Of a stretch of 9,731 bases of DNA, positions 1-9,731 are shown one piece after another; position 1 is the first letter of the stretch; each line of letters opens with the position of its first letter. Position numbers and translations under genes: made by a program. Source of the stretch: Oscillospiraceae bacterium (GTDB lineage Bacteria; Bacillota_A; Clostridia; Oscillospirales; Oscillospiraceae); contig JAEDOK010000061.1 of the NCBI GenBank assembly GCA_016302005.1, positions 1 through 9,731 on the forward strand. The letters are read 5' to 3'. The notes under the pieces were generated by a model. It saw nothing but the letters and a program-made list of their open reading frames with translations, searched no databases and was not told the origin of the DNA.

Positions 1-106
1 GCCACTCCTTTTTGCTCGCTTCTTCCGCCGCAGGCGGCGCTCGCAAACGTCCCCCGCCGTTCCGCGAAGCGGCAGACAGTAGGCATAAACAAGTCTGTAC
101 GGTGTC

Positions 107-147
107 GGTAGTTCCTACACACGGCGGGGACATGTCCCCGCCCTACA
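107..147 (-). repeat. Palindromic dispersed repeat, copy A
   Basis: The core GGCGGGGACATGTCCCCGCC at 123-142 is a perfect 20-base palindrome. Read on the minus strand with its flanks (TGTAG on one side, GTGTAGGAACTACC on the other), the unit matches the copy at 7363-7405 almost base for base over about 40 bases, in inverted orientation. It is intergenic in both places. It resembles the small REP/MITE-like repeats seen in Clostridia genomes. It could fold as a hairpin in RNA, but there is no T-run after it, so I do not call it a terminator. Confidence 0.8.
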
Positions 148-210
148 GAAGATTTTACAAAAAATGACACATCGGAGGCTTTTTATTGCCCGATTTTTTG
201 TGTTTTTGTG

Positions 211-244
211 TTGCGGTTGAGAGAAGTTTGTGGTAAAATATACG
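211..244 (+). promoter_or_regulatory. Candidate promoter of the LeuA-like operon
   Basis: Two overlapping sigma-A-like pairings are possible. One is TTGAGA (217-222) with TATACG (239-244) at 16 bases spacing. The other is TTGCGG (211-216) with TAAAAT (234-239) at 17 bases spacing. Both lie in the AT-rich stretch 50-60 bases before the start codon at 294. Neither is as good as the two downstream promoters with perfect TTGACA boxes. There is no visible attenuator between this promoter and the gene. Confidence 0.4.
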
Positions 245-293
245 CTAATCTATGATAAACCAACCAATCATTCACGAAAAGGAGAGAATCGCC

Positions 294-1709
294 ATGAAAA
301 CCATCCAAATTTCCGATTTGACGCTGCGTTTAAACGAGACGCAGAAATGCCCTGTTTCCAGCTTCCGCGAGAAGGTGGAAATTATGAAAGAGATGGATCG
401 ACTTTGCGTGGATGTGATTGAGACGACCTGCCGCAAGGAGCAGAAGGCGGACGCTCTGCTCCTGCATACCGCCGCTCCCCTGCTGCGTCACAGCGCCCTG
501 AGCTGCGCCTGTGAATTGTCCACAGAGGGGATCGACGCCGCGTGGGACGCCATCAAAGCCGCCGCGAAGCCGCGTCTGCTGCTTTCCGTCCCGACCTCCA
601 GTGTGCAGATGGAATACCTCTGCGGCTGCAAGCCGAAGATGCTTTTGGAAAAGATCCCCGCACTCGTCGCCCATGCCGCCGCGCTTTGCCCCGAGGTGGA
701 GTTTGCCGCCGTGGACGCAACGCGCAGTGAGCCGGAATTCCTGCGTCAGGCAATCCAAGCGGCGATTGACGCGGGTGCAACCACCGTGACCGTCTGCGAT
801 ACGGCTGGTGTCCTGCTGCCTGAGGAATTCAGTGACTTCCTTTGCAAGCTGCAGGAAGCCGTTCCCGCGCTGCAAAAGGTCTGTCTCGGCGCGGAGTGCT
901 CGGACAAGATGCACATGGGCGCCGCCTGCATGGTCGCGGCGGTGCAGGCGGGCGCAACGCTGCTCAAGACCGCCATCGGCTCCGGGGAGCTGCTGCCCGT
1001 TTCCGCGTTTTCCGATATTTTGAAGCTGCGCGGCGATTCGCTCGAACTGAGCTGTGCGCTGAATTTTCCCGTATTGGAGCAGGCTTGCGGCAGGATCCGT
1101 GACATGCTCTCGGCAAAGCAAAGCGCGCGTTCCCCCTTCACCGCAGGCGTGCAGGCGCTCGACGAAGCCATTCTCCTGCATGCGGGAGACGACCGCGCAA
1201 CCGTCGCCGCCTGTGTTTCCAAGTTGGGCTATGAGCTGAGCGAGGAGGATCTTGCGCGGGTGTATGAGAGCTTCCGCCGCATTTCCGAAAAGAAGGACAT
1301 CGGCAGCCGCGAGCTGGATGCCATCGTCGCAAGCTCCGCGATGCAGGTCGCGCCGACCTACCGTCTGAAGACCTTTGTTGCCAACAGCAGCAATGTCATG
1401 AGCGCGACCGCGCAGATCGAGCTGGAGAAAAACGGCAAGCTTTTGCAGGGCATCAGCCTCGGCGACGGCCCCATCGACGCTGCGTTCCTCGCGATTGAAG
1501 GCATCGTCGGGCATCATTTCGACCTCGACGACTTCCAGATCCAATCCGTCACCGAGGGCCGCGAGGCCATGGGCGAGGCGCTGGTCAAGCTCCGCTCCAA
1601 CGGCAAGCTCTACGCCGGACGCGGCATTTCCACCGACATCATCGGCGCGAGTATCCACGCGTACATCAGCGCGCTCAATAAAATCTGCTATGAGGAGGCG
1701 CAGGAATGA
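294..1709 (+). CDS. 2-isopropylmalate synthase-like protein with degenerate catalytic site and intact LeuA allosteric domain
   Basis: 471 residues; the start at 294 is chosen because AAAGGAGAG sits just upstream, whereas the ATG at 252 has no such site. Residues 1-270 follow the HMGL/LeuA TIM barrel: DLTLR (8-12), VEFAAVDATRSE (135-146), GATTVTVCDTAG (161-172) and AAVQAGA (215-221). Residues about 355-465 are a clear LeuA dimer/regulatory domain, with GDGPIDAAF (390-398), VTEGREAMGE (419-428) and GISTDIIGASIHAYISALN (444-462). Key catalytic positions are changed. The metal-ligand Asp after LR is Leu13. The HxH motif aligns with E201-C202-S203. The Asn of the NGIGER motif aligns with Gly229. 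Arg12 is kept. Known LeuA enzymes are usually over 500 residues and condense acetyl-CoA with 2-oxoisovalerate. I infer this protein is non-catalytic or has a different chemistry, perhaps sensing or regulatory. It overlaps the next gene by four bases, so the two are probably translationally coupled. Confidence 0.85.
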   Translation: MKTIQISDLTLRLNETQKCPVSSFREKVEIMKEMDRLCVDVIETTCRKEQKADALLLHTAAPLLRHSALSCACELSTEGIDAAWDAIKAAAKPRLLLSVPTSSVQMEYLCGCKPKMLLEKIPALVAHAAALCPEVEFAAVDATRSEPEFLRQAIQAAIDAGATTVTVCDTAGVLLPEEFSDFLCKLQEAVPALQKVCLGAECSDKMHMGAACMVAAVQAGATLLKTAIGSGELLPVSAFSDILKLRGDSLELSCALNFPVLEQACGRIRDMLSAKQSARSPFTAGVQALDEAILLHAGDDRATVAACVSKLGYELSEEDLARVYESFRRISEKKDIGSRELDAIVASSAMQVAPTYRLKTFVANSSNVMSATAQIELEKNGKLLQGISLGDGPIDAAFLAIEGIVGHHFDLDDFQIQSVTEGREAMGEALVKLRSNGKLYAGRGISTDIIGASIHAYISALNKICYEEAQE

Positions 1710-4186
1710 AGCTCTCCTTTTCCACCAATCACTGGGGCGAAAATAACATCAGAAGCTGTCTCGACATCGCCGCGGAATACGGCTTTTCGGGCGTGGAGCT
1801 GCACAGCCTCGACGACCTCGGCGGCGAAACGCCCGCTGCGGTCTACCACCGTCTGATCGCGCTCGGGCTAAGGATCCCCTGCGTCGATCTTTGCGCCGAC
1901 ATCGGCAATGCCGCGCAGAAGGATGCCGCCCTTGCGGAGCTGAAAGCCGTCCTTCCCGCCATGCAGGCGCTGCGCGTGACCTATCTGCGCCTGCGCGCCT
2001 CGGAGGGTGAAACTGCCGTCAATGCCACGAAGGACTTCCTGCGTGAGGCAGTCCCCGTTGCGGAGCGCGGCGGCATCGTCCTGCTCATCGAAACGGCAGG
2101 CGCGTTTGCCAACACCGAGACGCTGCGCAGCGTGCTCGGCAGCTTTGCCTCCGATGCTCTCGGTGCTCTGTGGGATCTCCACTATCCCTATCATGTCTGC
2201 GGAGAAAGCCCGGAGGACACCATCCGCAACCTCGGCGCGTATGTGCGCCATGTCCATATCAAGGACTCCACCGACGCAGGCACCTACTGCCTCGTCGGTG
2301 AGGGTGCGCTCCCGCTGGATGAATTCATCGACGCGCTGCGCTCGGTCAACTACGACGAGTTTGTCTCGCTGGAATGGGATCCCGCGTGGGCAGAAGAATA
2401 TGCCGATATGGATCTGATCTTCACCCACTTTGTCAGCTTCATGTCGCGCTATTCCAACCTCTCCCGCGCCCGCAAGAGCCTCTATCACAGCCGCAGCGGC
2501 GCAGGCAGATTCGTCTGGAAAAAGGACGCGCTGATCGAAAAGACCTTCTCGCAGGTGCTGGACACAATGGTAGAGCAGTTCCCGGATCAGTACGCCATCA
2601 AATACACGACCCTTGATTACACCCGCACCTATGCGCAGTTCCGCGACGATGTGGACACCTTTGCCCGCGCCCTGATCGATATGGGCGTTCGCGCGGGCAG
2701 CCATGTGGCGGTCTGGGCGACGAACATCCCCCAGTGGTATATCGCCTTTTGGGCAGTGACCAAGCTCGGCGGCGTCCTGGTCACGGTGAACACCGCCTAT
2801 AAAATCCACGAGGCGGAATACCTGCTCCGCCAGTCCGACACGCACACCCTCGTTATGGTCAGCGGCTACCGCGACTCCGACTATGCCTCGATCATCTCGG
2901 AGCTTTGCCCGGAGCTTGCCGATACGCGCCCGGGCGAGCCTCTGCGGAGCAAACGGCTGCCCTTCCTGCGCAATGTCATTACCGTCGGCTTCTCCATGCA
3001 GGGCGCAATGACATGGGAGCAGGCGATCAGCCGCAGCGCAAAGGTGCCGATTGAGGAGGTACAGCGCATGGCTGCCGCCGTCAATGTCCACGATGTGTGC
3101 AATATGCAGTACACCTCCGGTACGACGGGCTTCCCGAAGGGTGTCATGCTGACCCATTATAATATCGTCAACAACGGCAAGTGCATCGGCGACCGCATGG
3201 ATCTGTCCACCGCCGACCGCATGATGATCCAAGTGCCGATGTTCCACTGCTTCGGCATGGTGCTTGCCATGACCGCGTCCATGACCCACGGCGCGACGAT
3301 CCTGCCACTGCCCTATTTCTCCCCGAAACCGGCGCTCGCCTGCGTCAATCAGGAGCATATCACCGCCTTCCACGGCGTTCCGACGATGTTCATCGCCATG
3401 CTGGAGCATCCCGATTTTGAAAAGACCGATTTTTCCTTCATGCGCACCGGCATCATGGCAGGCTCTCCCTGCCCGATCTCCGTCATGCAGGATGTGGTGG
3501 AAAAGATGCATATGCGGGAGATCACCATCGTCTACGGGCAGACCGAAGCCTCCCCCGGCTGCACAATGAGCAGCACGGACGATCCGATCGAGGTGCGCGT
3601 TGCCACCGTCGGACGCGCCCTGCCCGAGATCGAGTGCAAGATCGTTGATCCCGAGACGGGCGAGGACTGCCCCGACAATGTGACGGGCGAATTCGTCGCG
3701 CGGGGCTACAACATCATGAAGGGCTACTACAAAATGCCCCGCGCCACCGCCGCTGCCATCGACAAGGACGGCTGGCTGCACACGGGCGACCTCGCCTGCC
3801 GCACCCCCGAGGGCAACTACCGCATCACCGGACGCCTCAAGGACATGATCATCCGCGGCGGCGAAAACATCTATCCCAAGGAGATCGAGGAATTCATCTA
3901 CACGCACCCAAAGGTCAGCGATGTGCAGGTCATCGGTGTGCCGGACGAGCAGTACGGCGAGGAGATCATGGCGTGCATCATCCTGAAAGAGGGCGAGACC
4001 ATGACCGCCGACGAGATGAAGACCTATATCCGCGAGCACATGGCAAAGCACAAGGTGCCCCGCTATGTTGATTTCGTGGATTCCTTCCCGATGAATGTCG
4101 CGGGCAAGATCCTCAAATACAAAATGCGCGAGGATGCCATTCAAAAGCTGGGGCTGCAAAAAGCAAACGCCATCGAAACGGCTTAA
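1706..4186 (+). CDS. Fusion: xylose-isomerase-like TIM barrel plus AMP-forming acyl-CoA synthetase
   Basis: 826 residues; it starts in the ATGA overlap with the previous stop, with GAGGAGG at 1692-1698 seven bases upstream. Residues 1 to about 245 resemble sugar phosphate isomerase/epimerases of the AP-endonuclease-2/xylose-isomerase-like TIM barrel class. Likely metal ligands are E129 (LLIETAG), D157 (LWDLHYPYH), H184 (VRHVHIKD) and E223 (SLEWDP), so that site looks intact. After a short linker, residues about 273-826 form a full-length adenylate-forming ligase. Its motifs are the P-loop YTSGTTGFPKG (469-479), YGQTE (610-614), HTGD (692-695), GRLKDMIIRGGENIYP (709-724) and the C-terminal catalytic lysine K801 in NVAGKILK. 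Such ligases make an acyl-AMP from ATP and a carboxylic acid, then transfer the acyl group to CoA; the protein should be cytoplasmic. The ligase part is closer to general fatty-acyl ligases (FadD/YngI type) than to the MACS enzymes downstream. The acid used and the role of the TIM barrel are unknown. No frameshift or internal stop separates the two halves. Confidence 0.88.
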   Translation: MKLSFSTNHWGENNIRSCLDIAAEYGFSGVELHSLDDLGGETPAAVYHRLIALGLRIPCVDLCADIGNAAQKDAALAELKAVLPAMQALRVTYLRLRASEGETAVNATKDFLREAVPVAERGGIVLLIETAGAFANTETLRSVLGSFASDALGALWDLHYPYHVCGESPEDTIRNLGAYVRHVHIKDSTDAGTYCLVGEGALPLDEFIDALRSVNYDEFVSLEWDPAWAEEYADMDLIFTHFVSFMSRYSNLSRARKSLYHSRSGAGRFVWKKDALIEKTFSQVLDTMVEQFPDQYAIKYTTLDYTRTYAQFRDDVDTFARALIDMGVRAGSHVAVWATNIPQWYIAFWAVTKLGGVLVTVNTAYKIHEAEYLLRQSDTHTLVMVSGYRDSDYASIISELCPELADTRPGEPLRSKRLPFLRNVITVGFSMQGAMTWEQAISRSAKVPIEEVQRMAAAVNVHDVCNMQYTSGTTGFPKGVMLTHYNIVNNGKCIGDRMDLSTADRMMIQVPMFHCFGMVLAMTASMTHGATILPLPYFSPKPALACVNQEHITAFHGVPTMFIAMLEHPDFEKTDFSFMRTGIMAGSPCPISVMQDVVEKMHMREITIVYGQTEASPGCTMSSTDDPIEVRVATVGRALPEIECKIVDPETGEDCPDNVTGEFVARGYNIMKGYYKMPRATAAAIDKDGWLHTGDLACRTPEGNYRITGRLKDMIIRGGENIYPKEIEEFIYTHPKVSDVQVIGVPDEQYGEEIMACIILKEGETMTADEMKTYIREHMAKHKVPRYVDFVDSFPMNVAGKILKYKMREDAIQKLGLQKANAIETA

Positions 4187-4202
4187 TTTAGAAAGAAAAA
4201 GC

Positions 4203-4231
4203 TTGACAAATTCTGTCGGCTGTGCTATCAT
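4203..4231 (+). promoter_or_regulatory. Sigma-A-type promoter of the first T-box unit
   Basis: A perfect -35 TTGACA (4203-4208) is followed after 17 bases by TATCAT (4226-4231), with predicted transcription start near 4238. It lies only 16 bases after the stop of the upstream gene, with no terminator between. Readthrough from the upstream operon would therefore also pass through the T-box. The promoter at 7035-7063 is closely similar, including GGCTGTG before the -10. Confidence 0.85.
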
Positions 4232-4237
4232 ATCACC

Positions 4238-4520
4238 AATTCAATACTTCAAAGGCTATGACGAAGACGGCATAGATCCCTTCCGTCCCAGAGAGTCGGC
4301 GTTGCTGCGAGGCCGATACGTGAAAGATCTGATTCTGCCCATCCCTTCCGAGCCGGAGATCCGAGAATATGCGCAAGCAAAAGGTAGGCGTCTCCCGTCA
4401 CTGCCACGTCACGGCAAGGGGCTTGTCAGAGCCATAAGGGGCACGAATGTGCAATTTGAGTGGTACCGCGGGTTAATACATTATCCCGTCTCAAAGCAAA
4501 CGCTTTGAGACGGGTTTTTT
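4238..4520 (+). promoter_or_regulatory. T-box riboswitch leader 1, specifier tentatively ATC (Ile)
   Basis: The T-box sequence GAGTGGTACCGCGGG is at 4458-4472. The antiterminator can form by pairing TTTGAG (4455-4460) with CTCAAA (4490-4495), and CGGG with CCCG, leaving the TGGTACCG bulge for the tRNA acceptor end. The competing hairpin is the terminator at 4485-4520. Stem I is recognisable: base helix GGCT (4254-4257) with AGCC (4351-4354), a TATGA kink-turn-like segment, lower helix CGAAG with CTTCCG, and distal AGAGAGTCGGC...GGCCGAT (4290-4316). The 3' strand of the specifier loop is CATCC (4340-4344), between TGCC and CTTCCG. By position the specifier is ATC at 4341-4343, an isoleucine codon. 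The base after it is C rather than the usual purine, so the codon call is weaker than the T-box call. T-boxes of this kind read through when the matching tRNA is uncharged. Confidence 0.93.
4485..4520 (+). terminator. T-box intrinsic terminator 1
   Basis: A 13-base-pair stem is formed by CCCGTCTCAAAGC (4485-4497) and GCTTTGAGACGGG (4502-4514), with loop AAAC and a run of six T (4515-4520). Its 5' arm is shared with the antiterminator, which makes it the conditional terminator of the T-box rather than the end of the upstream operon. Confidence 0.95.
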
Positions 4521-4577
4521 CATGAATGCACCACCCCGTTTAGGGGCAGACGCCTATGCAGGCACTTTCTTCCATCG

Positions 4578-4602
4578 CGTAGGGGCGGCTATCAGCCGCC
4601 CG
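4578..4602 (+). repeat. Palindromic repeat B, left copy of an inverted pair
   Basis: A 25-base unit beginning CGTAGGGGCGGC and ending CAGCCGCCCG. It is an exact reverse complement of 4649-4673 and is itself nearly palindromic. It sits between the T-box terminator and the start of the next gene, followed by GTGCAGGAACTATT. That flank resembles the GTGTAGGAACT flank of the other repeats in this window. Confidence 0.85.
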
Positions 4603-4648
4603 CGTGCAGGAACTATTGAAAGTGTACCAATTTGTTCGCTCGTGCCGG

Positions 4649-4673
4649 CGGGCGGCTGATAGCCGCCCCTACG
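4649..4673 (-). repeat. Palindromic repeat B, right copy of an inverted pair
   Basis: Exact reverse complement of 4578-4602, with 46 bases between the two. The pair could form either two small hairpins or one long cruciform-like stem in the 5' untranslated region of the XRE-cupin-ligase gene. It is probably a small non-autonomous repeat unit rather than a coding segment, although a reading frame opening with GTG at 4604 crosses it. Confidence 0.85.
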
Positions 4674-4750
4674 AGAACGAACGCATCCATACAAAAAACT
4701 ACAACAACGCAAAACGCGAAGAAAATTCAACAGAAAAAGAGGGCTTGACT

Positions 4751-7018
4751 ATGCAGACAACGACATACGATTCCACCATCACCGCCATTGCCGAGCGTAT
4801 TCGGGACATGCGCGAAATCGCGGGCTTCTCCGTTGCGGAAATGGCGCAGAAGACCGATACGACGCCGGAGCAGTACGAGGCTTACGAAAACGGCACCTGT
4901 GATTTTCCCTTCTCCTTCCTTCACAAGTGCTCCATTGCCTTCGGCATCGAGACGACGGCGATCTTAGAGGGTCGGACGGCAAAGCTCTCGTCCTACACCG
5001 TCACCCGCAGCGGCGAGGGGCAGGTCGTGGTGCAGGAGGGCGGCATTGAGATCTGCAACCTCGCGCCGCGCTTCCGTGACAAGATCGCAGAGCCGCACCT
5101 TGTCCGTTACGGCTACCGCGCCGAGCAGCAGAATCTCCCCATTCAAACAAGCACCCACTCCGGGCAGGAATTCGACTATATCGTCAGCGGCAAGCTCAAG
5201 GTGCAGATCGGCAAGCATACCGAGATCCTCGGTCCCGGCGACTCCATCTACTATAACAGCTCCACACCCCACGGCATGATCGCGGTGGACGGGCAGGATT
5301 GCGTTTTCTGCGCCGTTGTCCTGCCCGGTGAGGACATGGCACCGGAGTCCGTCAGTCAGAGTATCGCGGTCGCCCGTTCGAGCCAGCGCCTGCTGTGCGA
5401 AAAGTTCGTAAAGTGTACCGAAAACGAAAAGGGTGAGCTGCAAAAGATCGCCTTTGAAAACGAAAACAGCTACAACTTCGCCTTTGACACCGTAGACGCT
5501 TTGGCAGACGCCTATCCCGAAAAGCTTGCCATGCTCCATTTGGACAAAAACAAGGTCGAGCGCCGCTTTACCTTCCGCGACATCAAGCGTGCCTCCAATC
5601 AGACGGCGAACTATTTCCGCTCCCTCGGCATTCAAAAGGGTGACCGCGTCATGCTGGTGCTCAAGCGTCATTACCAATTCTGGTTCTCCATGCTTGCCCT
5701 GCATAAGCTCGGCGCCATTGCCATTCCCGCAACCAATCAGCTTCTGACCCACGACTTTGAATACCGCTTCCAAGCCGCAGGCGTCAGCGCCATCGTCGCA
5801 ACAGCAGACGGCGCGGTCGCAGACTGCGTTGATGCAGCGGCAAAGACCTGTCCGGAGCTGAAAACCAAGATCTTAGTCGGCGGAAAGCGCGAGGGCTGGC
5901 ACAGCTTTGATGAAGAATACTCCCTCTATACCGGAAAATTTGAGCGCTCTGCCGATACGCCCTGCGGTGAGGATATCTGCACCATGTTCTTCACCTCCGG
6001 CACGACGGGCTATCCAAAAATCGCCGCCCACAGCTACAAATACGCCCTCGGGCATTTCATCACGGCGAAATACTGGCACTGCGTCGAGCGCGACGGTCTG
6101 CACCTGACCATCTCCGACACCGGCTGGGGCAAGGCGCTGTGGGGCAAGTTCTACGGGCAGTGGATGGCGGAGGGCGCCGTCTTTACCTATGACTTTGACC
6201 GTTTCGACGCCCAAGATATTCTGCCGCTGTTTGCCAAGTACCGGATCACGACCTTCTGCGCACCTCCCACGATGCTGCGTATGCTCATCAAGGAGGATCT
6301 GTCGAAATACGACCTCAGCTCCATCCACCACATGACCACGGCGGGCGAAGCGCTCAACCCCGAGGTTTTCCGTCAGATCAAGAAGCTGACGGGTCTGACC
6401 GTCATGGAGGGCTTCGGTCAGACCGAAACGACCCTCTCCATCGCCACCCTGCCCGGCACGCCCAGCCGTCCCGGCTCGATGGGCAAGCCCACGCCGCTGT
6501 ATGATATCGACCTCGTGGATGCGGATGGCAACAGCGTGCCCGACGGCGAGGTCGGTGAGATCGTCATCCGCACCGATAAGGGTGTCCCCTGCGGACTGTT
6601 CAGCGGCTATTACCGCGACGAAGCGCGCACCAAGGAGGTCTGGCACGACGGACTGTATCACACCGGCGATACCGCGTGGCGCGATGAGGACGGCTATTTC
6701 TGGTATGTCGGCAGAGTGGACGATGTGATCAAGTCCTCCGGCTACCGCATCGGACCGTTCGAAATTGAAAACGTCATCATGGAGCTGCCCTATGTCCTCG
6801 AGTGCGGTGTCTCCTCCGCCCCCGACGAGGTGCGCGGTCAGGTCGTCAAAGCAAGCATCGTACTGACCAATGGCACGCAGCCCAGCGAGGAACTGAAAAA
6901 AGAGATTCAGAACTATGTAAAATCGCATACCGCGCCCTATAAATACCCGCGCATCATCGTCTTCCGCGACGAGCTTCCCAAGACCATTTCCGGCAAAATT
7001 CAAAGAAACAAGCTTTAA
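4751..7018 (+). CDS. XRE-HTH / cupin / MACS-type acyl-CoA synthetase fusion, copy 1
   Basis: 755 residues. The start at 4751 is chosen because AGAGGG (4738-4743) lies seven bases upstream and the paralogue at 7637 begins at the equivalent point; the frame is open further upstream but runs through a repeat. Residues about 10-73 are an XRE-like helix-turn-helix (AERIRDMREIAGFSVAEMAQ). Residues about 80-192 are a single cupin with H136, E140, G147 and H174, where the first histidine of the classic HxH is Ser134. Residues about 235-755 are a complete medium-chain acyl-CoA synthetase-like ligase: P-loop FFTSGTTGYPK (413-423), SDTGWGKALWGK (455-466), FGQTE (555-559), YHTGD (636-640), GRVDDVIKSSGYRIGPFEIE (654-673) and catalytic K749 in TISGKIQR. 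Known MACS enzymes activate short or medium acids, including branched ones, to acyl-CoA. It lies downstream of T-box 1, so expression should rise when the cognate tRNA is uncharged. Whether the HTH really binds DNA, and the exact substrate, are unknown. Confidence 0.92.
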   Translation: MQTTTYDSTITAIAERIRDMREIAGFSVAEMAQKTDTTPEQYEAYENGTCDFPFSFLHKCSIAFGIETTAILEGRTAKLSSYTVTRSGEGQVVVQEGGIEICNLAPRFRDKIAEPHLVRYGYRAEQQNLPIQTSTHSGQEFDYIVSGKLKVQIGKHTEILGPGDSIYYNSSTPHGMIAVDGQDCVFCAVVLPGEDMAPESVSQSIAVARSSQRLLCEKFVKCTENEKGELQKIAFENENSYNFAFDTVDALADAYPEKLAMLHLDKNKVERRFTFRDIKRASNQTANYFRSLGIQKGDRVMLVLKRHYQFWFSMLALHKLGAIAIPATNQLLTHDFEYRFQAAGVSAIVATADGAVADCVDAAAKTCPELKTKILVGGKREGWHSFDEEYSLYTGKFERSADTPCGEDICTMFFTSGTTGYPKIAAHSYKYALGHFITAKYWHCVERDGLHLTISDTGWGKALWGKFYGQWMAEGAVFTYDFDRFDAQDILPLFAKYRITTFCAPPTMLRMLIKEDLSKYDLSSIHHMTTAGEALNPEVFRQIKKLTGLTVMEGFGQTETTLSIATLPGTPSRPGSMGKPTPLYDIDLVDADGNSVPDGEVGEIVIRTDKGVPCGLFSGYYRDEARTKEVWHDGLYHTGDTAWRDEDGYFWYVGRVDDVIKSSGYRIGPFEIENVIMELPYVLECGVSSAPDEVRGQVVKASIVLTNGTQPSEELKKEIQNYVKSHTAPYKYPRIIVFRDELPKTISGKIQRNKL

Positions 7019-7034
7019 ATCGTTAAAGATTTCC

Positions 7035-7063
7035 TTGACAATCCGAGACGGCTGTGGTATCAT
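7035..7063 (+). promoter_or_regulatory. Sigma-A-type promoter of the second T-box unit
   Basis: TTGACA (7035-7040), a 17-base spacer and TATCAT (7058-7063), with predicted start near 7070. It begins 16 bases after the previous stop codon, the same spacing as in the first unit. This supports duplication of the whole promoter-leader-gene block. Confidence 0.87.
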
Positions 7064-7069
7064 GGATGA

Positions 7070-7336
7070 AAATTCATAGAAAAACGATGACGGAGAGTGT
7101 CACGGATCCCGCTTTTTTCAGAGAGTCGGCGTATGGTGCGAGCCGATAAAAAGCTCCCGCAGACTGTAGCTCCCGAGTTGGAAAGAAGAAAGCATGTTTC
7201 ATGTGAGTAGACCTTTCCCGTGATTGCTGCGTAAAGGCATAATGCTTGTTAGAGCATGAGTGGCACGAAGGTGCAATTTGAGTGGTACCGCGGGATCATA
7301 CCCGTCTCAAAGAAGAACTCTTTGAGACGGGTTTTT
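7070..7336 (+). promoter_or_regulatory. T-box riboswitch leader 2, specifier tentatively GTA (Val)
   Basis: The T-box GAGTGGTACCGCGGG is at 7280-7294, preceded by the same GCAC-GAA-GTGC-type hairpin as leader 1. Stem I shows AACGATGA (7083-7090, kink-turn region) and lower helix CGGAG (7091-7095) with CTCCCG (7170-7175). The 5' loop strand is AGT, followed by helix GTCaCGG (7099-7105) with CCGcaGAC (7157-7164), and the distal motif is AGAGAGTCGGC...GAGCCGAT (7120-7146). The 3' strand of the specifier loop is TGTAG (7165-7169). The triplet one base before the lower helix is GTA (7166-7168), a valine codon, followed by the expected purine G. The codon call rests on hand folding and is moderate; the T-box identity is near certain. 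Confidence 0.93.
7301..7336 (+). terminator. T-box intrinsic terminator 2
   Basis: CCCGTCTCAAAG (7301-7312) pairs with CTTTGAGACGGG (7320-7331), followed by five T (7332-7336). The stem is nearly identical to that of T-box 1, and its 5' arm can instead pair with the TTTGAG and CGGG of the antiterminator. Confidence 0.95.
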
Positions 7337-7362
7337 GCATTTCTCTTACAATCCGCACAACC

Positions 7363-7405
7363 AATGTAGGGCGGGGACATGTCCCCGCCGCATGTAGGAA
7401 CTACC
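7363..7405 (+). repeat. Palindromic dispersed repeat, copy B
   Basis: It contains the perfect palindrome GGCGGGGACATGTCCCCGCC at 7370-7389, flanked by TGTAG and by ATGTAGGAACTACC. It is the inverted counterpart of the copy at 107-147, differing at only a couple of positions. It lies in the untranslated leader between T-box terminator 2 and the last gene. Confidence 0.85.
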
Positions 7406-7410
7406 AAGCC

Positions 7411-7529
7411 TTGTCATTGCGAGGAGCGAAGCGACGTGGCAATCTCGTGTAGGAACTTCCAAGTGCGCACCCACAAGAAACTGCTATAGATTGCCACAGC
7501 CAGTGTGCGCACTGGCTTCGCAATGACAA
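7411..7529. repeat. MITE-like element with TTGTCATTGCGA terminal inverted repeats
   Basis: The left end TTGTCATTGCGA (7411-7422) is exactly mirrored by TCGCAATGACAA (7518-7529). Inside are GTGGCAATCT (7436-7445), its partner ATTGCCAC (7490-7497), and a hairpin AGCCAGTG-TGCG-CACTGGCT (7498-7517). There is no transposase frame inside. Similar TGTCATTGCGA...GGCAATC sequences recur as dispersed repeats in many bacterial genomes. I infer a non-autonomous element or a pair of head-to-head repeat units. Confidence 0.7.
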
Positions 7530-7544
7530 AATGGGCAATCTTCC

Positions 7545-7580
7545 CGTGTCATTGCGAAGAGAGCAGCGACGCGGAAATCC
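7545..7580 (+). repeat. Partial, diverged extra copy of the TGTCATTGCGA repeat
   Basis: GTGTCATTGCGAAGAGAGCAG followed by CGACGCGGAAATCC matches the left half of the element at 7411-7445 with substitutions (GCGACGTGGCAATCT becomes GCGACGCGGAAATCC). It lies directly upstream of the ribosome binding site region of the next gene. Confidence 0.65.
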
Positions 7581-7636
7581 AATTCAAAAAATGATATAAA
7601 CGCCGCGTGAGAATCAAGAGAAACGGAGGAACGCCA

Positions 7637-9731
7637 ATGAAATCAACCACCGGCTTAAAGCTCACCATTCAGGATATGGCAAAGCGTATCCGCGACCTGC
7701 GCGAGATCGAGGGCTATACCGTCAGCGAGATGGCGAAGAAAACAGGTCTGACCCCCGAGGAATACGCCAGCTGCGAGGCAGGCGAAAGCGACCTCAGCTT
7801 TGCCTTCCTCTACCGCTGCGCCCTGGAATTCGGTGTCGATGTCACCGACCTGATTCAAGGCTCCAGCCCGACCCTTTCTTCCTATACGCTCACACGAAAG
7901 GGCGAAGGGCAGCGCATTGAGGAGGCGCACGGTCTGACCTATTACAACATGGCTGCCGCCTACCGCAACCGCATTGCAGAGCCGCTGTTCGTCATCTCCG
8001 CCTACTCTCCCGAACGGGAACACAGTGAGATCGAGCTGACCACCCACGAAGGGCAGGAATGTGACCTTGTCGTGCGCGGCAAGATGAAAATTCAGATTGG
8101 TAACCATATTGAAATCCTCTCCGAGGGAGATTCCATCTACTACGACTCCTCCACCCCGCACGGCATGATCGCTATCGACGGGCAGGACTGCGCATTCTAC
8201 GCCATCGTCCTCAACCCCTCCGGCGAGAGCGAGAAGCCCAAGGAGGAGAACTATACCGACGATGTCCGCGCCACGCAGCACGACACCAAAGCGCGCATCT
8301 ATCAAAACTACATCATCGCAGATGAGGACGAGAAGGGCGCGCTCCGCTCCATCGCCTTCCAAAACACCGAGCGCTTTAACTTCGCCTACGACATTTTGGA
8401 TAAGCTTGCCGACACCCAGCCGAACAAGCTCGCTATGCTCCATGTTGCCGCAGACTGCACGGAGCGGCGCTTCACCTTCCGCGATGTCAAGCAGGCGTCG
8501 AACCGCGCGGCAAACTTCTTCCGCTCCCTCGGTATCCAAAAGGGCGACCGCGTAATGCTGGTGCTGAAGCGGCACTATCAATTCTGGTTCGCCATGATGG
8601 GCTTGAATAAGCTGGGCGCGATTGCCATTCCCGCCACCTGCCAGCTCAAGTCCCATGATTTTGAGTATCGCTTCCAAGCGGCGGGCGTCTCGGCGATTCT
8701 CTGCACCGCCGACGGCGATGTTGCCAAAGAGGTGGAGCTTGGCGCCACGAACTGCCCTGCGTTGAAAACAAAAATTCTCGTCGGCGGACAGCGCGAAGGC
8801 TGGCGCAATTTCGACGCGGAGTTCTCCATGTTCTCCAGCCACTTTGACCGCACCGACGATACCGCCTGCGGCGACGATTTGATGCTGATGTTCTTCACCT
8901 CCGGCACGACGGGCTATCCCAAAATCGCCGCGCACAGCTATAAATATCCCCTTGGTCACTTCATCACCGCGAAATACTGGCATCAGGTCGATCCCGACGG
9001 TCTGCATCTGACCATTTCGGACACCGGCTGGGCAAAGGCGATGTGGGGCAAGCTCTACGGGCAGTGGCTCTGTGAGGGCGCGGTCTTCATCTATGACTTT
9101 GACCGCTTTGACGCGGCGGACATCCTGCCGCTGTTTGCCAAGTATCAGATCACGACCTTCTGCGCCCCGCCCACGATTTACCGCATGATGATCAAGCAGG
9201 ATATTGCAAAATACGATTTCTCCAGCGTCAAGCACGCGACCATTGCGGGCGAAGCGCTCAACCCCGAGGTCTTCCGCCAGTTCGAAAAGGCAACGGGTCT
9301 GCGCGTGATGGAGGGCTTTGGGCAGTCCGAGACAACCCTCGTCATTGGCAACACCATAGGCATGAAGCATAAGCTCGGCTCGATGGGCAAGCCCGTCCCG
9401 CTCTACGAGGTTGAGCTGCTCAGCCCCGACGGCAAACCCGTCCCCACCGGCGAGACCGGCGAGATCTGCATCAGCGTGGCAAATGGTATGCCCTGCGGTC
9501 TCTTTGTTGAATATTACCGCGACGAGGAGAAGACGAACGAATGCCGCCACGACGGCTGGTACCACACGGGCGATCTCGCGTGGAAGGACGAAGAGGGCTT
9601 CTACTGGTATGTCGGCAGAGCGGACGATGTCATCAAGTCCTCCGGCTACCGCATCGGGCCGTTTGAGATCGAGAATGTCATCATGGAGCTGCCCTATGTG
9701 CTGGAATGCGGCGTCTCCTCCGCTCCCGACG
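7637..9731 (+). CDS. XRE-HTH / cupin / MACS-type acyl-CoA synthetase fusion, copy 2 (cut by window end)
   Basis: 698 codons are visible with no stop; about 57 C-terminal residues are missing compared with copy 1. The start is set by GGAGGA (7625-7630), six bases before ATG. Residues about 11-74 are an XRE-like HTH (AKRIRDLREIEGYTVSEMAK). Residues about 80-195 are a cupin with H137, E141, G148 and H175. Residues about 240-698 are the ligase: P-loop FFTSGTTGYPK (419-429), SDTGWAKAMWGK (461-472), FGQSE (561-565, Ser in place of the Thr in copy 1), YHTGD (642-646) and GRADDVIKSSGYRIGPFEIE (660-679). The catalytic A10 lysine would lie beyond the edge. The ligase part is very similar to copy 1, while the HTH-cupin part has diverged more. 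It sits behind T-box 2 (tentative Val), so it is probably a paralogue with a different branched acid substrate. The substrate call is inference. Confidence 0.92.
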   Translation, partial: MKSTTGLKLTIQDMAKRIRDLREIEGYTVSEMAKKTGLTPEEYASCEAGESDLSFAFLYRCALEFGVDVTDLIQGSSPTLSSYTLTRKGEGQRIEEAHGLTYYNMAAAYRNRIAEPLFVISAYSPEREHSEIELTTHEGQECDLVVRGKMKIQIGNHIEILSEGDSIYYDSSTPHGMIAIDGQDCAFYAIVLNPSGESEKPKEENYTDDVRATQHDTKARIYQNYIIADEDEKGALRSIAFQNTERFNFAYDILDKLADTQPNKLAMLHVAADCTERRFTFRDVKQASNRAANFFRSLGIQKGDRVMLVLKRHYQFWFAMMGLNKLGAIAIPATCQLKSHDFEYRFQAAGVSAILCTADGDVAKEVELGATNCPALKTKILVGGQREGWRNFDAEFSMFSSHFDRTDDTACGDDLMLMFFTSGTTGYPKIAAHSYKYPLGHFITAKYWHQVDPDGLHLTISDTGWAKAMWGKLYGQWLCEGAVFIYDFDRFDAADILPLFAKYQITTFCAPPTIYRMMIKQDIAKYDFSSVKHATIAGEALNPEVFRQFEKATGLRVMEGFGQSETTLVIGNTIGMKHKLGSMGKPVPLYEVELLSPDGKPVPTGETGEICISVANGMPCGLFVEYYRDEEKTNECRHDGWYHTGDLAWKDEEGFYWYVGRADDVIKSSGYRIGPFEIENVIMELPYVLECGVSSAPD

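Follow-up and report, generated by a model that had tools for sequence, protein, structure and literature searches.

Why should a bacterium place two paralogous acyl-CoA ligase genes each behind a T-box leader of its own? We addressed this question for a 9,731-nt stretch of DNA from an Oscillospiraceae bacterium (GCA_016302005.1, contig JAEDOK010000061.1, positions 1-9,731, forward strand; hereafter referred to as the window), in which T-box leader 1 precedes the gene for ligase 1 and T-box leader 2 precedes that for ligase 2 (Table 1). A first-pass annotation, made from the letters alone, had proposed a tRNA-controlled system for the salvage of branched-chain acids, and the VOR and IlvE neighbours seen in relatives, together with a clean codon-ligase split, now speak for that proposal. 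The best-supported account, to which we assign a probability of about 0.84, is a salvage module in which tRNA gates the recovery of branched-chain amino acids: a cell short of one of them, and probably only such a cell, would rebuild it from the corresponding waste acid.

In the proposed mechanism, uncharged tRNA-Ile would cause readthrough at T-box 1, and the HTH-cupin-fused ligase 1 would then activate 2-methylbutyrate; uncharged tRNA-Val would act likewise at T-box 2, where the paralogous ligase 2 would activate isobutyrate. The 2-oxoisovalerate:ferredoxin oxidoreductase VOR, which comes next in relatives' clusters and presumably lies beyond the window end, would join CO2 to each acyl-CoA to give a 2-oxo acid, and a transaminase would convert the latter to Ile or Val. 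The argument draws on features established by sequence comparison, namely the T-box anatomy, the codons, the co-inheritance of codon and paralogue, the VOR and IlvE neighbours in relatives and the absence of IlvC and IlvD from related genomes.

The T-box leaders and their specifier codons

Both leaders match the Rfam T-box model RF00230 from end to end. Their scores lie below the Rfam gathering score of 93, so that neither is listed at the gathering threshold; in the nearest genome, G001, whose ligase 1 is 96% identical, the T-boxes before pheS (85.6 bits) and before cysE (75.8 bits) are likewise below 93. Our comparisons rest on this genome and on other relatives. The T-box core, UGGNACCGCG with an N that fits the cognate discriminator, reads UGGU at this place in both leaders; it fits A73 of the nearest genome's tRNA-Val(UAC) and also A73 of tRNA-Ile, the latter base being our assumption. 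Other discriminators in that genome are U73 in tRNA-Cys, C73 in tRNA-His and G73 in two tRNA-Ser. Antiterminator pairing is present in the leader 2 fold and partial in leader 1, and does not rise above shuffled sequences (z -1.2, -0.9). Each terminator is separated from its ligase start by a stretch with inverted, repeat-like sequence (4577-4670 and 7365-7450), and a similar GGGGACATGTCCCC piece was seen by eye near 120-145.

For the codon reading, we combined the window and 20 extra stretches with the best 80 of at least 591 ligase-relative loci. The 80 come from named genomes of Clostridia and Oscillospiraceae, in many cases from the ruminant gut to judge by the record title. Genes were included when the N-terminus was present and at least 420 nt lay upstream, which gave 76 ligase-1 genes, 74 ligase-2 genes (the window ligases among them) and 24 LeuA-like genes. 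The ligase-1 and ligase-2 labels for these counts were assigned by tblastn nearest match, and near-duplicates were kept (L068 and L139 are apparently one contig, and L083 and L085 are near-identical). The T-box core was found before 66 of the 76 ligase-1 genes, where the codon was ATC in 64 by script and in the other two by eye. Before ligase-2 genes, 62/74 had the core, with 48 GTA, 11 GTC and three ATC codons.

Across 67 Ile and 59 Val leaders, the codon sits on the 3′ side of Stem I, in the internal loop between its lower and upper helices. The lower helix of the Val set shows compensatory changes (AU 41 and GC 18 at one pair, GC 52 and AU 7 at another; n=59), and its upper helix is weak, the best run of four pairs being 75% paired. 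The upper helix of the Ile set covaries, with 64, 67, 64 and 53 of 67 leaders paired at its four positions and up to five pair types. This covariation agrees with ATC and GTA/GTC as the codons in the specifier loop. The first-pass annotation had given the 3′ strands of the lower helices as CTTCCG and CTCCCG; of these, CTTC and CTCC pair. RNAalifold itself drew part of the Ile codon into a helix, by pairs that rested on near-invariant columns, and we set these pairs aside because the standard register has its lower helix paired in 67/67 leaders and covarying upper pairs. Our preference for the standard register over RNAalifold's own leans on T-box architecture as generally understood.

The codons were read by a position rule: codon, one nucleotide, the 4-bp lower helix, one nucleotide and GAG, so that six nucleotides separate codon and GAG. 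This rule was calibrated on the Rfam T-boxes of G001 and 19 relatives, whose 20 downstream proteins were searched against NCBIfam; three of them (L110, L115 and L116) had no NCBIfam match at the threshold used. Five of six valS leaders read GTC (L105, L111, L118, L120 and L121), the sixth (L112) giving no codon, and all five tyrS leaders read TAC (L003, L101, L103, L107 and L119). Single leaders gave TTC for pheS (L006), TGC for cysE (L007, with the core TGGA) and CTC for both a true leuA (L108) and ilvC (L113). Two further calibration leaders precede other acyl-CoA ligases and gave TAC (L126) and AAA, a misreading by the script (L102).

Only frame 0 yields a single amino acid in each of the two sets. 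Shifted by -1, the Ile set reads His 41 times, Tyr 24 times and Asn and Asp once each, and the Val set reads Cys 53, Arg three, Ser two and Gly one time. The placing of the codon accords with TBDB, in whose account the preferred frame lies 2-4 nt away from where the specifier bulge ends and the preferred codons are AUC for Ile, CUC for Leu and those with 3′-A or 3′-C for Val (PMC7778990); Wels 2008 describes codons 1-5 nt before GAG (PMC2494555), the distance here being 6 nt. Rfam columns, relatives and the frame calibration agree on the Ile and Val codons that the first-pass annotation had derived from position; by comparison, ATC and GTA are established as the specifier codons.

Table 1. Features of the window, with positions counted from its first nucleotide.
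Feature	Position	Strand	Basis
T-box leader 1 (isoleucine)	4249..4496	+	RF00230, 63.9 bits, E 8.9e-14
T-box leader 2 (valine)	7078..7312	+	RF00230, 92.3 bits, E 4.1e-21
Stem I lower helix, 5′ strand GAAG	4263..4266	+	partner CTTC 4345-4348; paired 67/67, near-invariant in Ile set
Stem I lower helix, 5′ strand GGAG	7092..7095	+	partner CTCC 7170-7173; paired 59/59, compensatory changes in Val set
Specifier codon ATC (Ile)	4341..4343	+	Rfam specifier columns, relatives, covariation, frame comparison
Specifier codon GTA (Val)	7166..7168	+	Rfam specifier columns, relatives, covariation, frame comparison
T-box core TGGTACCGCG, leader 1	4461..4470	+	UGGU fits discriminator A73
T-box core TGGTACCGCG, leader 2	7283..7292	+	UGGU, same core as leader 1
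Intrinsic terminator, leader 1	4485..4520	+	hairpin 4485-4514, then T run; -24.1 kcal/mol, z -8.2
Intrinsic terminator, leader 2	7300..7336	+	hairpin 7300-7332, then T run; -23.5 kcal/mol, z -7.5
Ligase 1: HTH + cupin + AMP-binding acyl-CoA ligase, predicted 2-methylbutyryl-CoA ligase	4751..7018	+	Pfam, NCBIfam, PDB comparison, tree
Ligase 2: paralogue of ligase 1, predicted isobutyryl-CoA ligase	7637..9731, cut by window end	+	Pfam, NCBIfam, PDB comparison
LeuA-like predicted pseudo-enzyme (HMGL-like barrel + LeuA_dimer), proposed leucine sensor	294..1709	+	Pfam; metal-ligand loss
AP_endonuc_2 + AMP-binding fusion, predicted acyl-CoA ligase (isovalerate proposed)	1706..4186	+	Pfam; LeuA-like neighbour

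The ligase paralogues and their neighbourhood

To relate codon and protein, we built a FastTree phylogeny of 147 ligases (at least 680 aa, from 167 pieces). One split, with support of 0.996/0.998, separates 85 proteins, with 67 ATC and no Val codons, from 62 proteins with 43 GTA, 11 GTC and no Ile codons. The correspondence of codon and clade, 67 ATC against 54 GTA/GTC, therefore has no exceptions; the three ATC leaders labelled ligase 2 by nearest match belong to the ligase-1 clade, and the remaining tree members lacked a core or a readable codon, or their upstream sequence was too short. A plain ligase of another family, without the HTH-cupin part, also has its own T-box, with GTA (Val) by eye (L154).

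The closest solved structure for both ligases is PDB 3ETC (641.7 bits for ligase 1 and 547.4 for ligase 2, against 370 and 290 for the respective runners-up). This is MacsMa, an acyl-CoA synthetase of Methanosarcina acetivorans, for which 2-methylbutyrate is reported as the preferred acid (PMC10455477). The best NCBIfam model for both is MbcS (NF047394), an enzyme described as preferring 2-methylbutyrate and isobutyrate and using isovalerate poorly (PMC10026030). Judged by homology alone, then, the ligases are not tied to unrelated acids, in keeping with the branched acids proposed in the first-pass annotation. They have the full ligase domain and acyl-site Trp of the MACS type, the Trp of TAKYW being present in 147/147 proteins; by alignment, we equate it with Trp259 of MacsMa as numbered in PMC10455477.

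At the threshold used, 23 columns separate the two clades, of which two are in the ligase domain and 21 in residues 6-214, which comprise the HTH, the cupin and the part between them. Residue 460 is Gly in 84/85 proteins of the ligase-1 clade and Ala in 62/62 of the ligase-2 clade; residue 463 is Leu in the former and mostly Met or Ala in the latter. The loop of these two residues aligns with GWVTG of an acetyl-CoA synthetase, whose Val310 and Thr311 we take to be acyl-pocket residues, and MacsMa has Gly there. We found no paper confirming this role of Val310 and Thr311, and only the loop alignment comes from our analysis. For ligase 2, we infer a smaller pocket for the smaller acid. The N-terminal HTH-cupin parts (4751-5400 and 7637-8300), with their 21/23 paralogue-specific columns, suggest that the two paralogues recognize distinct DNA sites or ligands. 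Inside the ligase 1 coding sequence, ARAGORN called a tRNA-Pro (5067-5154, minus strand), which we took as a probable false positive.

The first-pass annotation had also required a ferredoxin 2-oxoacid oxidoreductase gene in the genome. The corresponding contig of the nearest genome begins inside the fused ligase and continues with a T-box, ligase 1, a T-box, ligase 2, a P-loop gene and VOR alpha, beta and gamma; VOR alpha starts about 0.9 kb after ligase 2 and scores 546.7 bits against the curated cut-off of 399 (NF005507). In 54/80 loci, VOR alpha or beta follows further along the strand of the ligases. Among the 26 loci without it, nine carry both ligases and all of these end within 3 kb. 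The VOR gamma family was checked in L039 (POR). Over a set of 30 relatives, 17 of them from the same genus, VOR alpha was found in 18: 17 of the 19 in which a ligase was matched at E 1e-120, plain ligases counted, against 1/11 others. The branched-chain aminotransferase IlvE was detected by similarity in 18/80 loci and confirmed above its cut-off in L027 and L039, with a class IV transaminase in L076. The small P-loop ATPase gene (L138:6769-7446) occurs in 59/80 loci, usually just before VOR, and has only weak ParA/CbiA similarity.

Enzymes of the usual branched-chain synthesis are scarce in these genomes. KARI (IlvC) and IlvD are each present in 7/30 relatives and in 1/17 of the same genus, and all eight same-genus genomes with a ligase lack both. 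In a larger set of 147 genomes of the order, each at least 90% complete, KARI was lacking in 44/56 genomes with a full-length HTH-cupin ligase compared with 27/91 without (Fisher 9e-9, kinship ignored); ten genomes with plain ligases only were scored as without, and one copy cut by a contig end was scored as full.

Contrary evidence and rival explanations

Several observations weigh against the proposed salvage. VOR lies outside the window and is known from relatives' clusters, and eight loci of a single ligase type lack a same-strand downstream VOR even though they offer over 4.5 kb of room for it; two of the eight have it on the other strand. Neither ligase reaches the MbcS equivalog cut-off of 850 (443.8, and 340.4 for the window-truncated ligase 2), so that we did not class them as MbcS. 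The T-box core was not found before 10/76 ligase-1 genes, 12/74 ligase-2 genes and 14/24 of the relatives' LeuA-like copies; in two same-genus loci, L139 and L142, the two ligases stand in one run with the core detected before neither. The core is moreover an imperfect guide, since that of the tyrS leader L119 is TGGA, which does not fit A73 of tRNA-Tyr, and the 30 tRNA loci that were read in the nearest genome, out of 36 found, did not include tRNA-Ile. Some of the same-genus genomes are only 55-76% complete, and 12/56 genomes of the order keep KARI together with a full-length ligase, phylogeny being uncontrolled in this count. Finally, 8/9 same-genus genomes without the ligase also lack KARI. 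Inside the genus, loss of IlvC and IlvD therefore fails to follow the ligase, for which reason our confidence stands at its present value rather than at 0.85. Separately, the ligase-2 genes of L092, L093, L096 and L097 have Val T-boxes, and VOR was not found in the 6 kb downstream of them.

tRNA sensing, the substrates and the direction of flux are what we infer from sequence. The strongest of the rival explanations, which we nevertheless consider unlikely, holds that the ligases supply branched acyl-CoA primers for lipids or act with VOR in amino-acid breakdown, the T-boxes tracking amino-acid status indirectly. In its favor are the eight single-type loci without downstream VOR despite room and the best-model match to MbcS, which is described as feeding branched-chain fatty acid synthesis in Staphylococcus aureus (PMC10026030). 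However, a T-box for each paralogue, IlvE among the neighbours and the missing IlvC and IlvD in same-genus ligase carriers point to synthesis. VOR is reversible and could also serve breakdown, but T-boxes turn genes on at amino-acid shortage, which is the wrong sign for it.

It is quite improbable that ligase 1 activates propionate instead of 2-methylbutyrate, yielding 2-oxobutyrate, the usual precursor of Ile. The conversion of 2-oxobutyrate to Ile needs IlvC and IlvD, both absent from the 8/8 same-genus ligase carriers, even though MacsMa also adenylates propionate, with 2-methylbutyrate preferred (PMC10455477). There is hardly any chance that T-box 1 is read in the +1 frame (TCA/TCC, Ser) rather than as ATC: this frame gives Ser in all 67 Ile-set leaders, but it gives a stop in 48 of the 59 Val-set leaders (Ser in the other 11) and fails on the valS and tyrS leaders, the same rule in frame 0 gives Val, Tyr, Phe and Cys on the valS, tyrS, pheS and cysE leaders, and the G73 of the nearest genome's two tRNA-Ser could at best wobble with UGGU, which A73 fits best.

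Proposed leucine and aromatic arms, and known systems

Beyond the Ile and Val pair that the first-pass annotation had described, our comparisons add possible Leu and aromatic arms, the loss of ligands in a LeuA-like protein and the missing IlvC and IlvD. The LeuA-like gene stands upstream of a fused ligase, in which a xylose-isomerase-like TIM barrel is joined to a predicted acyl-CoA ligase, and the gene for the fusion begins at most 70 nt from the LeuA-like gene in 29/29 cases. The metal ligands of LeuA, which we take to be the Asp of LRDG and the two His of HxH (the canonical letters were taken from PDB alignments), are all lost in 23/25 full-length LeuA-like copies, namely the window's and 22/24 of the relatives'; the Asp survives in L070 and one His in L141. 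The gene was accordingly not classed as a 2-isopropylmalate synthase. A role in canonical leucine synthesis was rejected on account of this loss and of LeuB, which is above its cut-off in 7/30 relatives and missing from 16/17 of the same genus (present in 1/17). Ten of the 24 relatives' copies have a T-box, all with Leu codons (eight CTC and two CTG). Before the window's own copy, we detected no T-box in positions 1-330; with only 293 nt upstream in the window, this gene was left out of the upstream T-box count. From its gene context, we propose that the LeuA-like protein may be a leucine sensor for an isovalerate ligase.

Seven same-genus genomes (L158-L164) have a T-box before a gene of acyl-CoA-ligase size, with IorA above its cut-off in the same stretch. 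By eye, the codon is TAC in five and TTC in L162 and L164. The best NCBIfam model of the ligase-sized gene is PRK06187 (fatty-acid-CoA ligase), under its cut-off, in 4/4 tested (L161, L164, and the regions of L160 and L159 as L102 and L126). L161 also has a 435-aa PaaK-like gene, below its cut-off. In an eighth genome, L166, a TAC T-box stands ahead of a 746-aa frame, a part of which (L110) had no NCBIfam match, and no IorA was seen there; L171, of another family, has a T-box read by eye as TGG (Trp), with the core TGGT and IorA in the stretch.

These arms suggest a general T-box regulon of acid salvage, in which Ile, Val, Leu and Tyr/Phe switches would each control dedicated ligases feeding VOR or IOR, a dead LeuA with its leucine-binding domain would sense leucine for the isovalerate ligase, and HTH-cupin self-regulation would place each Ile and Val arm under a second control; we hold this wider scheme tentatively, at somewhat less than an even chance. 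It would provide candidate genes, one ligase per amino acid, for the long-reported building of Ile, Val, Leu and Phe from branched or aromatic acids by rumen bacteria. For ligases that are otherwise hard to assign, the amino acid can be read from the T-box codon, and the likely acid follows from it. The pathway becomes open to direct test, as do its control and the proposed dead-LeuA sensor, and the cluster is a possible marker for gut bacteria that may depend on the branched acids of others; the feeding of isoacids is a current livestock topic.

T-boxes, ligases, VOR and carboxylation are each of known kinds, and the regulon joining them was not found described among the open-licence papers that our searches listed, none of which dealt with T-box control of acyl-CoA ligases or VOR. 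The main text of Wels (PMC2494555), its supplement apart, does not contain the terms CoA ligase, acyl-CoA, ferredoxin, AMP-binding or indolepyruvate. With known T-box riboswitches (RF00230), the leaders share Stem I with its specifier loop, the UGGN core, the terminator and the codon usage given by TBDB (PMC7778990), whereas each of them precedes an acyl-CoA ligase proposed to serve acid salvage, with one T-box per ligase. MbcS is the best NCBIfam match of both ligases and is reported to prefer the two acids proposed for them, 2-methylbutyrate and isobutyrate, but is one enzyme for two acids with a role in membrane lipids, and the ligases score far under its cut-off. The similarity to MacsMa (3ETC) extends over the whole ligase domain (641.7 bits), and ligase 1 has MacsMa's Gly in the GWGK loop, where ligase 2 has Ala; the 580-residue MacsMa chain is too short for an HTH-cupin part, and we know of no T-box for it. 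VOR is shared through the alpha subunits over the curated cut-off (NF005507) in relatives' clusters, and IOR (TIGR03336) through IorA above cut-off in the seven aromatic operons; what differs is their place after T-box-led ligases and the proposed direction of synthesis. The closest physiological parallel is the carboxylation of branched acids in the rumen (Allison and co-workers, cited in PMC7356843): rumen bacteria are described there as making Leu from isovalerate, Ile from 2-methylbutyrate, Val from isobutyrate and Phe from phenylacetate, the same pairs of acid and amino acid as proposed here. That work is older biochemistry (PMC7356843), to which the present comparison would add a gene cluster and its regulation.

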